Below, in pieces: positions 1-40,901 of a stretch of 64,000 nt of DNA. The stretch lies in the NCBI RefSeq assembly GCF_002005165.1, contig NZ_CP019699.1, forward strand, positions 3,472,001 through 3,536,000, read 5' to 3'. The stretch comes from Novibacillus thermophilus. Its GTDB lineage: Bacteria; Bacillota; Bacilli; Thermoactinomycetales; Novibacillaceae. A program made the translations under genes and the position numbers. How positions within the stretch are numbered: position 1 is the first letter of the stretch; every line of letters begins with the position of its first letter. The notes under the pieces are model-generated. The model saw nothing but the letters and a program-made list of their open reading frames with translations, searched no databases and was not told the DNA's origin.

Positions 1-314
1 TTTCGCCGCCAGTCCGAAAAATAGACATCTTCCGACTGGGTGGAATTAGGTGTGGGCTGAAAAGGAGAATCCGTCTTCCTTTCCTGAAGGTGAAAGTAGC
101 GGACCAGGTGATTCAATTGTCGTTCTGTGAGCGGCCGGTTCAGTGGAGCCCCATGGTGAACCATCCATGATTCGAGTTGCCAATTATTCGTCTGAAGGGT
201 TTGAACGAGTGGATGAACATTGACCGTTTGTTGCGCAGCCGACAAGTGGCTCCAACCTGTGTACAGAAAAACGATCCCCAGGGCTAATATGGAGAACCCC
301 CACTGCTTTACCAT
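1..314 (-). CDS. ywmB: YwmB-like secreted protein, 5' part only
   Basis: The first 104 codons of a minus-strand gene are present; the rest lies beyond the left edge. It is too short at this edge for a family search by eye. Translation gives a short N-region, a hydrophobic segment of about 17 residues and a likely signal-peptidase site after SHLSAA. A mature region rich in Gln, His and Asn follows. The ATG at 314 has a good ribosome site (GGGAGAGG). A TATAAT at 426-421 could be its -10, though no good -35 is seen. The assignment rests mainly on position: in B. subtilis ywmB follows the atp operon and ywzB and precedes murAA and spoIID. The function of YwmB is not well defined. Confidence 0.6.
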   Translation of the reverse strand, partial: MVKQWGFSILALGIVFLYTGWSHLSAAQQTVNVHPLVQTLQTNNWQLESWMVHHGAPLNRPLTERQLNHLVRYFHLQERKTDSPFQPTPNSTQSEDVYFSDWRR

Positions 315-36744: not shown

Positions 36745-36773
36745 TATTTCGATCAAAAGTTCCATTTTCCTCT
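36745..36773 (-). promoter_or_regulatory. SigH-type promoter of spo0F
   Basis: On the minus strand AGAGGAAAA (36773-36765) and ATCGAAATA (36753-36745) are 11 bases apart. This fits the SigH pattern RNAGGAWWW-N11/12-RNNGAATWW with one mismatch. The -35 begins 22 bases after the 3' end of the group II intron. Confidence 0.65.
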
Positions 36774-38257
36774 TAATTGTAAAAAGTTTTTGTAATCGAG
36801 TAGGAGGGGGCGGCTAGCCCCCGTCCTCTCACACCACCTAGCATGCGGGTCCGCACTAGGCGGTTCCAAAAGGTTGACGAAGTTCCATATAACGAAAAAG
36901 CATACTCTTCAGCCCTTTCGCTTCCCAGTAGGAAGTCGGAAGGGCATTGTTTGTATTCCGGGACATTTCCCATGCGGGAATTGGCCATCATGAAGCAGGC
37001 CCATTCTGGTACGCCAAGGGCCCTAAGTTCACGAAGACGGGTTCTGACCCGTTTCCATTGTTTCCATAGGCACATCCTCAGTCTGCGCCGAATCCATTGG
37101 TCGAATCTTTCACAGTGCGTCTTCATCGATGCCAGTCGAAAGTACCTGACCCAACCGATGATGTAGCGGTTGAGCCGTTTAATTCGCTCTTCCATGGAGA
37201 TCGCCCGTGAACGACTCGTCATCTCACGTATTCTATCTTTGAATCGGGAGATGGTCTTCGGGGCTAACCGAATCGTTGCTTGTTTGTCCGGCAGAAAACT
37301 GAACCCTAGGAATTTCCGGTTCCAGGGGCGGTCTACCGCACTTTTGTCTCGCTTCACTTTCAGTTTCAGCTTTCCCTCTACAAAGCGAATTACCGATTCC
37401 ATGACGCGTTCCCCTGCGCGCTTGCTAGCGACAAAGATGTTACAATCGTCCGCATAACGTGCGAATTGCAACCCGCGTTTCTTTCGTTCTTTGTCCAGGT
37501 CGTCCAACAAGATGTTGGCCAGAAGCGGACTCAGCGGTCCGCCTTGCGGCGTCCCTTCCTCTGTCCGTTGGCATACTCCGTTGACCATGACTCCGGCGTT
37601 GAGGTACGCCCGGATGAGTTTCAGGTCTCGCTTGTCCTTCACCCTTCTTGCTACCCTCGCCATGAGCATGTCGTGGTTTACTCGGTCAAAGCACTTCTCT
37701 AAGTCCAAGTCCACAACCCATCTGTATCCACTCTGGATATAGCGCTGGGCTTGAAGGACCGCATCATGGGCCCGCTTCCCTGGTCGGAAGCCGTAGCTGT
37801 CCCATGAGAAGTGAGCATCGAAGATCGGATGCATCACTTGCAGCAGGGCTTGCTGGAGGAGCCGGTCCATCGCGGTCGGGATCCCTAGAAGCCTCACGCC
37901 GCCTCCAGGTTTGGGGATTTCCACCCGTTTGACTGGCGCGGGTTTGTAGGTTCCCGCTAGGAGCTCTGCTTTCACCTGTGCCCAGTGTGTGTTCAGGTAA
38001 GCCTGCAGTTCAGCTACCGTTACTCCGTCCACTCCGGGCGCTCCTCCGTTTCGGACCACTCGCTTGTATGCGAGCAAGAGATTTTCTCTCTCAAGCATCC
38101 TGTCCAGCAAGTCGTTATGGTCTTCGCGAGAGGAAGGGGCGACTTGTGCCGGAGAAGAGCTCGGCGCTCCAACATACCCTCGCGGCTTCACCGCTGCTCT
38201 CTGTTGGCAGCTCCCTTGCGGGATATTCTGCTGTCTGCGCTCTTCTCTCGAACGCAT
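36773..38257 (-). CDS. ltrA: Group II intron reverse transcriptase/maturase, C-terminus out of frame
   Basis: The intron-encoded protein copies intron RNA and aids splicing. The RT domain is intact: EIPKPGGGVRLLGIP, SYGFRPGKRAHDAV, VDLDLEKCFDRVNHD, EGTPQGGPLSPLL and catalytic ARYADDCN; the maturase X domain follows. From about NSRMG the open frame departs from the family and runs through domains V and VI into the 3' exon. Another frame nearby encodes the expected end (NNALPTSYWEAKGLKS then FRYMELRQPFGTA) and stops at TAG 36858-36856, inside domain V. So the C-terminus is frameshifted between about 36955 and 36985. The true start is probably near 38098-38110, just before MLERENLLLAY; a clear ribosome site is not seen. 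Confidence 0.88.
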   Translation of the reverse strand: MRSREERRQQNIPQGSCQQRAAVKPRGYVGAPSSSPAQVAPSSREDHNDLLDRMLERENLLLAYKRVVRNGGAPGVDGVTVAELQAYLNTHWAQVKAELLAGTYKPAPVKRVEIPKPGGGVRLLGIPTAMDRLLQQALLQVMHPIFDAHFSWDSYGFRPGKRAHDAVLQAQRYIQSGYRWVVDLDLEKCFDRVNHDMLMARVARRVKDKRDLKLIRAYLNAGVMVNGVCQRTEEGTPQGGPLSPLLANILLDDLDKERKKRGLQFARYADDCNIFVASKRAGERVMESVIRFVEGKLKLKVKRDKSAVDRPWNRKFLGFSFLPDKQATIRLAPKTISRFKDRIREMTSRSRAISMEERIKRLNRYIIGWVRYFRLASMKTHCERFDQWIRRRLRMCLWKQWKRVRTRLRELRALGVPEWACFMMANSRMGNVPEYKQCPSDFLLGSERAEEYAFSLYGTSSTFWNRLVRTRMLGGVRGRGLAAPSYSITKTFYN

Positions 38258-38664
38258 CGGTTTCCTCTCTCCTTTCGGTTCGGCCCTTCCGCTTTCCGGC
38301 GCCCCGTACTTGCGTACTATGGCCTCTGCTGACTCCTGCGGATTCAGCGCAGCCTCTCGACTGCGGTTACGATGTTACTTCGCGTGTTCCGCAGGCCTCC
38401 CCAGATAAGAGCGTCATCTTTCCGCCCGCGATCACTGGAGTTTACAGGATGAGCCCTTGGCGGCTTTGGATTTCGTTGTGTTCTGGCAACTCATCCGACT
38501 AATCCTGCCTCAAATCCAGTTCGTGTACCTTGACCCGTGCGTTTGTCTCCGGCTTCCTTCAGATTCCGCCTCGCGACGGACACCCTTGCCTTTGACTACG
38601 GTAGGCGCTCGCCAGCCCCCGTTCGGGACTTTCACCCTATAGATGACGCCCATGCTGGGCGTAC
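36795..38664 (-). mobile_element. Group IIC intron
   Basis: A complete 1870-base ribozyme element. The 5' end GTACGCCC follows the T-tract of the pyrG terminator; the next part (ATCTATAGGGTGAAAGTCCC; CAAGGGTGTCCGT; GGAATCTGAAGGAAGC) matches domain I of class C introns such as GsI-IIC. A reverse transcriptase is encoded in domain IV. The 3' end carries domain V, domain VI and the usual ending CTACTCGAT. Class C introns are known to insert just after Rho-independent terminators, and this copy does so exactly. Confidence 0.9.
36796..36865 (-). ncRNA. Group II intron domains V and VI
   Basis: Domain V (36833-36865) is a 33-34 nt hairpin: AACCGCCTAG pairs with CTAGGTGGT, with TGCGG/GCA in the distal stem; the triad is CGC, as in class C. 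The domain VI stem GGGGGC/GCCCCC and the splice end follow. Confidence 0.75.
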
Positions 38665-40322
<1,658 letters not shown>

Positions 40323-40355: not shown

Positions 40356-40394
40356 AAAAAAGAAACGTGCCGCCCTTTTTGTGAAGGGGGCACG
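40356..40394 (-). promoter_or_regulatory. pyrG leader attenuator hairpin
   Basis: On the minus strand CGTGCCCCCTT and AAGGGCGGCACG form a terminator with a TTTCTTTTTT tail, about 55 bases before pyrG. The CCCCCUU in its first arm could pair with extra G residues at the RNA 5' end, as in the B. subtilis pyrG system. It also serves as the terminator of rpoE. Confidence 0.75.
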
Positions 40395-40421
40395 ATTTTT
40401 GACGACGTTAAGTTCATGAAG

Positions 40422-40460
40422 CCCACCGTTAAGTCTACCGGGAGTTTCTTCCCTTGTCAA
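40422..40460 (-). promoter_or_regulatory. pyrG promoter with GGGC start site
   Basis: On the minus strand TTGACA (40460-40455) and TAGACT (40437-40432) are 17 bases apart. Seven bases on, the expected transcript begins GGGCUUC (GGG at 40424-40422). B. subtilis pyrG starts GGGCU and adds extra G when CTP is low. Confidence 0.75.
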
Positions 40461-40466
40461 CCCGAT

Positions 40467-40901
40467 CTAGTCGTCTACGCCGATGTCGTCCCCGAAATCC
40501 TCATCTTCCGAAACGAGCAAATCGTCTTCTTCGTCTCTGGTGTCCCTCTCGTCGTATTCGCTTTCTTCCTCGTCAAGGTAATCGTCGTCATCGTAGTCGT
40601 CTTTCACACTGGCGGCAACTGCCGCATCTGACGCCTGATCCAGCGTGTACCGCTCTTTTAAGCCCCACAGGCTGCGACCGACGCAAACAAAACGTCCGTC
40701 TATGTTAATATCCGTGTAAAGCTGTGCCATGTAAGACCGCATGCCTTCCTCTGTCAATCCTTTGATTTCGGCTACTTTCTCAGTTAGGTCACGGTAGTGA
40801 AGAGGTTCTTCCGACTGTTTCAACAACTCGTAAACTAAATCGACCATCGGCACTTCTTTCGCTTCCTCGGGTGTAAGTTCCAATGCCGCTTTTTTTGCCA
40901 T
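40467..40901 (-). CDS. rpoE: RNA polymerase delta subunit
   Basis: The delta subunit raises promoter selectivity and RNA polymerase recycling in Bacillota. The 144-residue protein has the folded N-terminal HARE-HTH-like domain (residues about 10-95, MVDLVYELLKQS to SLWGLKERY) and a disordered, strongly acidic tail of Asp and Glu from about 100. It lies upstream of pyrG, as in B. subtilis, and has its own promoter. Confidence 0.95.
   Translation of the reverse strand: MAKKAALELTPEEAKEVPMVDLVYELLKQSEEPLHYRDLTEKVAEIKGLTEEGMRSYMAQLYTDINIDGRFVCVGRSLWGLKERYTLDQASDAAVAASVKDDYDDDDYLDEEESEYDERDTRDEEDDLLVSEDEDFGDDIGVDD

Follow-up and report, generated by a model that had tools for sequence, protein, structure and literature searches.

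A candidate CTP-sensitive attenuator in the leader of pyrG in Novibacillus thermophilus

The rpoE-pyrG gap and the surrounding locus

The window, i.e., the whole stretch of 64,000 nucleotides analysed here, carries on its minus strand rpoE, followed by pyrG, and the gap between these two genes is 165 bases. The assignment of rpoE is based on an open reading frame with a HARE-HTH match, which we take to be a domain of the RpoE delta subunit. In a profile search, pyrG was the sole PF06418 match in the genome. The attenuator candidate lies inside the gap, in the same sense as pyrG, and in the direction of transcription the locus consists of the following features:

40467..40901, minus strand: rpoE (RNA polymerase delta subunit), the upstream gene; open reading frame with Pfam HARE-HTH (E 8.5e-12)
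40455..40460, minus strand: -35 box TTGACA, from the sequence (read 40460-40455)
40432..40437, minus strand: -10 box TAGACT, after a 17-base spacer behind the -35 box
40421..40424, minus strand: GGGC, inferred transcription start and putative G-stuttering site (+1 to +4), 7 bases after the -10 box
40395..40420, minus strand: spacer of 26 bases between GGGC and the hairpin
40384..40390, minus strand: CCCCCUU in the 5' arm of the terminator, proposed target of a G tail by predicted pairing; C tract from +35
40356..40394, minus strand: intrinsic terminator, composed of the hairpin 40394-40366 (CGUGCCCCCUUCACAAAAAGGGCGGCACG, -17.3 kcal/mol) and the U-rich tail 40365-40356
40312..40320, minus strand: Shine-Dalgarno sequence AGAAAGGAG, assigned by inspection of the sequence
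38682..40301, minus strand: pyrG, CTP synthase of 539 aa; open reading frame with Pfam CTP_synth_N (4.3e-135) and GATase, ATG at 40301

The first-pass annotation proposed a TTGACA-17-TAGACT promoter followed by GGGCUUC, and this is exact to the base on the minus strand, with GGGCUUC as the predicted 5' end of the RNA. The terminator that it placed about 30 bases further on, with CCCCCUU in the first arm, was found at 40394-40366, beginning 30 bases after the inferred +1, with the arm tract at 40390-40384. The order of the parts between rpoE and pyrG also agrees with its description, and the identities of both genes are backed by Pfam. Over its first 75 bases, the leader folds with a z of -3.21, and only one of 200 shuffles folds as well. 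A simple terminator scan reported the attenuator hairpin in its plus-strand reading only; it was missed on the minus strand presumably because of a bulge in the minus-strand stem. The hairpin also scores as a plus-strand terminator, at 40372-40391, so it may act bidirectionally.

The downstream end of pyrG has an arrangement of its own. The terminator of the gene (38665-38701, minus strand) overlaps the gene end: its 5' arm falls within the final codons of pyrG, and its loop holds the stop codon (38684-38682). Directly behind this hairpin and its T run, which ends at 38665, lies a group II intron (36773-38664, minus strand), recognized by Rfam RF02001 at 38410-38580 and RF01998 at 38283-38369, whose open reading frame (36773-38257) is a reverse transcriptase-maturase (Pfam RVT_1 and GIIM). 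Class C introns insert directly behind terminators. The Rfam gathering scan of the intron gave no match to a domain V family, so its 3' end may be lost.

Conservation of the promoter-GGGC unit and of the terminator upstream of pyrG

The region upstream of pyrG was compared in 141 loci, taken from 61 genomes (the window's own included) and from the best 80 named genome contigs; these loci are mutually related, and the two sets were pooled without dereplication. The unit searched for, within 1000 bases upstream of the gene, consisted of a -35 box matching at 5 or more of its 6 positions, then 16-18 bases of spacer, TANNNT, 5-9 bases and GGGC. It was present in 125 of the 141 loci, and in none of the 141 when the upstream DNA was reversed or reverse-complemented. 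By kinship, 41 of the 42 genomes from the window's order carry it, the window being one of them, as do 14 of 19 from other families of the class; among the best 80 named contigs, it was found in 70. The geometry is narrow. The distance from the -10 box to GGG is 7 in 119 of the 125 units and 6 in the other 6, and the spacer between -35 and -10 is 17 in 106. The start reads GGGCT in 122, GGGCA in 2 and GGGCG in 1. GGG is preceded by T in 121 units, by C in 3 and by A in 1; as a G never occupies this position, the run is exactly three G in all 125.

The choice of search rules was also varied. A loose pass (TANNNT, 4-9 bases, GGG, at most 400 bases upstream) matched 127 of the 141 loci, some of them at chance positions. 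A pass requiring GGGC at 6-7 bases, at most 400 bases upstream and with no rule for the -35 box, gave 125 of 141, a set that differs from the main one: it includes L109, L140 and L141, which have poor -35 boxes, and L053, with a -35 box of 4/6, and it misses L043, L056, L086 and L087, whose leaders exceed 400 bases. The main counts for 125 loci leave out L053, L109, L140 and L141. Among the 16 loci in which the unit was not found, 8 lack a terminator in the 300 bases upstream; the best-scoring terminator of 7 others has no more than two consecutive C in its 5' arm; and L053, the last of the 16, combines the attenuator anatomy with its weak -35 box. The single genome of the 42 in the order in which the unit was not found (G038, locus L140) also has no terminator within 300 bases.

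Outside the class, the unit is rare. In an even draw from the phylum, pyrG was present in 58 of 61 genomes, two of which (the window's own and G044) were already counted, leaving 56 outside the class, and the unit was found in one of these. In this locus (L194), the -10 box is 5 bases from GGG, the start reads GGGCGCU and the 5' arm of the hairpin has two C in a row; by eye, arm and loop together read CCUUCCC. L194 is a candidate member only.

The terminator shows a strict asymmetry. When a stability of -8 kcal/mol or lower and a place no more than 140 bases from the inferred start were required, a terminator was present in all 125 leaders, and without exception the 5' arm holds the longest C run of its stem, the mean longest C run being 3.96 in the 5' arm and 1.06 in the 3' arm. 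As a control, 98 terminators behind pyrG were used, from loci whose DNA extends that far. The longer C run was in the 5' arm in 44, in the 3' arm in 23 and tied in 31. The controls thus show a weaker bias in the same direction (sign test 0.014, compared to 5e-38 for the leaders, both with kinship ignored). There is no reason for a strict 5'-arm rule in a plain terminator, whereas it is required of the target of a G tail. The C tract, counted over arm and loop, is 2 long in 9 leaders, 3 in 34, 4 in 39, 5 in 36 and 6 in 7, and in the 125 leaders it starts 23-92 bases from +1 (median 45). With 5 C at +35, the tract of the window is ordinary among the 125, and the claim of a stronger five-C target made in the first-pass annotation does not hold.

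The spacer between start and hairpin was compared with that of L123, which comes from the sister genome G001, the sole other genome of the window's family searched. Spacer identity was 0.39, compared to 0.44 (sd 0.04) for shuffles of the L123 spacer, and promoter and terminator were each 0.68 identical. In six further leaders, identity was 0.29-0.50 for the spacer, 0.50-0.59 for the promoter and 0.43-0.66 for the terminator, ranges that overlap; the shuffle comparison was made for the sister only, and it is only there that the identity measure separates the parts. The Rfam covariance models gave no match in the leader at gathering score, and none at E up to 1. An aptamer or riboswitch was therefore rejected as a candidate for this leader, as there was no Rfam match and the likeness of the spacer to the sister does not exceed that of shuffles.

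The same sister locus has the only GGGCG start among the 125. On inspection, the templated GGGCGC of L123 could form pairs with GUGCCC of the arm even when no extra G is added, yet the predicted pairing of the 5' end is low without extra G (0.025), and it is 0.724 with one and 0.997 with two.

Predicted pairing of the G tail and two builds of the leader

Folding was computed for the leader cut before the 3' arm and for the leader with the whole hairpin. In the window leader cut before the 3' arm, the C tract is already predicted to pair partly with the 5' end when no G is added, at a probability of 0.596; two extra G raise this to 0.998 and five to 1.0, and with added A it is 0.594-0.598. The energy of this truncated form changes from -5.7 to -12.5 kcal/mol with two G and to -17.1 kcal/mol with five, close to the -17.3 kcal/mol of the terminator hairpin. 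Across the 125 leaders, the mean pairing before the 3' arm is 0.498 with no G, 0.964 with two G and 0.619 with two A. Clean in the window, the A control is less so in general, as with added A pairing rose from 0.284 to 0.795 in the Bacillus velezensis locus L061 and from 0.498 to 0.643 in the mean of the 125, probably through pairing of A with the U next to the C tract.

When the whole hairpin is present, the probability of the terminator is at least 0.992 in the window at every G number up to 12 and at least 0.998 in L061; in the mean of the 125 leaders, with added G, it goes from 0.946 to 0.827 and C-tract pairing to the 5' end from 0.0 to 0.135. The full terminator wins at equilibrium, so the switch would have to be kinetic and act during transcription. 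In these models, pairing of the G tail is possible and, in the window, G-dependent; being a calculation at equilibrium, folding is neither proof nor refutation of the switch.

The leaders divide by the base that precedes the C tract. This base is U in 54 of the 125 (L061 among them), G in 69 (the window among them) and A in 2. In the G build, templated C4 lengthens the predicted antiterminator helix, in which GGGGGC faces GCCCCC. Because C4 extends the helix in this way, fewer extra G might suffice in the G build, and the CTP set point might differ from that of the U build, a suggestion drawn from the modelled helices that we consider rather doubtful. The mean gain from two extra G is -5.91 kcal/mol in the G build and -5.37 in the other (Mann-Whitney p 0.006, uncorrected for kinship). 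The C tracts of the G build are also longer (4.39 vs 3.48). For the truncated form to match the terminator, a median of 8 G is required in both builds.

Proposed mechanism, its alternatives and its relatives

Judged from its sequence and comparative features, the leader is very probably a transcription attenuator of pyrG worked by CTP-sensitive reiterative initiation. The parts, the spacing and the asymmetry between strands are conserved at pyrG across the class, and the pairing that the G tail needs is possible; the G-stuttering attenuator put forward in the first-pass annotation is thereby supported. By analogy to B. subtilis, start site, slippage and response to CTP in this leader would be as follows. 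The polymerase would initiate at GGGC. When CTP is ample, elongation would proceed to C4, the RNA would keep its templated 5' end, the hairpin at 40394-40366 would form and transcription would stop before pyrG. When CTP is scarce, the polymerase would stall before C4 and slip on GGG, adding extra G. The resulting G tail would capture CCCCCUU in the interval between emergence of that arm and synthesis of the 3' arm; the terminator would then fail and pyrG would be read. Only 6 bases separate the rpoE stop codon from the -35 box, which leaves no room for a terminator before the promoter, and the attenuator terminator probably also stops read-through from rpoE.

The same lack of room speaks for an alternative in which the hairpin is a constitutive rpoE terminator that leaves pyrG weakly expressed with no sensing of CTP, GGGC being an ordinary start, and it is in line with this alternative that folding prefers the complete hairpin at every G number tested. 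However, with a constitutive terminator there would be no need for the 5' arm to carry the longest C run in 125 of 125 leaders, or for GGGC to stand at a near-fixed distance from the -10 box, and we consider this explanation very unlikely. An attenuator may also be run by a ligand-binding RNA or an RNA-binding protein instead of slippage, and such control is, as general knowledge, frequent for leader terminators of biosynthetic genes. Against this are the blank Rfam result, a spacer of just 26 bases and its identity to the sister, which is no higher than that to shuffles, and such a device is extremely unlikely here.

A chance resemblance has also to be considered, since in the genome the bare patterns are no commoner than their backwards controls. 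Genome-wide (3.63 Mb), the promoter-to-GGGC pattern was matched at 2 places, the pyrG leader and one other, vs 4 for the backwards pattern; TANNNT-6..8-TGGGC-20..45-CCCCC occurs at 2, including the pyrG leader, vs 7. The pattern by itself can therefore arise by chance and is no proof. What takes the pyrG leader beyond chance is where it lies, between rpoE and pyrG, and that it is conserved at this place: 41 of the order's 42 genomes have the unit, and the comparative count at pyrG gave 125 of 141 loci, with 0 of 141 for either control; chance is thus an almost negligible explanation. The one other promoter-to-GGGC match (C1:655840, L142), considered as a second G-stutter leader, was rejected: it reads GGGGC, and by eye the C run of the nearby hairpin is on the 3' side.

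Reiterative initiation as the preferred explanation has well-known precedents. The B. subtilis pyrG attenuator, as we take it, follows rpoE and has a GGG start before C and a terminator with a C/U-rich 5' arm. Meng, Turnbough and Switzer reportedly described it in 2004 as a case of CTP-sensitive reiterative transcription, and a 2007 paper by Elsholz and others names the number of G in its title as what governs the regulation. The leader described here is like it in the gene, GGG before C, the terminator, the C/U-rich 5' arm and rpoE upstream. Compared to L061 of B. velezensis, the nearest named stand-in for B. subtilis, the start is GGGCUUC here and GGGCUCUUC there, and the arm is GCCCCCUU with a bulge here and GCUCCCUUUC there. 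The E. coli pyrBI, codBA, upp and carAB systems slip on T/U and sense UTP, mostly via abortive products and not via an antiterminator. The proposed switch would share with them slippage at initiation as a sensor of a nucleotide.

These four E. coli examples are listed as genes under reiterative control in a passage of PMC4448216, which also describes reiterative addition of G at the start of B. subtilis pyrG under pyrimidine starvation, preventing attenuation, and reiterative transcription at pyrG of Streptococcus agalactiae, with a similar start sequence and a terminator before the gene. Reiterative G at the pyrG start is stated for S. pyogenes in a part of PMC6431027, and in a part of PMC4403831 pyrG is termed tightly regulated by CTP-sensitive reiterative transcription attenuation. 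The streptococcal leaders resemble ours in start sequence and terminator; they belong to a different order and their evidence is RNA-seq, while ours comes from sequence only. In the literature searched, which leaves most subscription journals outside, no title on a prior description of this organism's leader was found.

As the mechanism is already known, this locus is a further member, and the switch looks like a widely conserved and already described device. The 125 leaders provide a quantitative description of the element, T-GGG-C mostly 7 bases from the -10 box with the 5' arm holding the longest C run, and since Rfam is blank at this leader, such a description could serve annotation. The locus itself is ordinary; with it, another order would be added to textbook nucleotide sensing by polymerase slippage.
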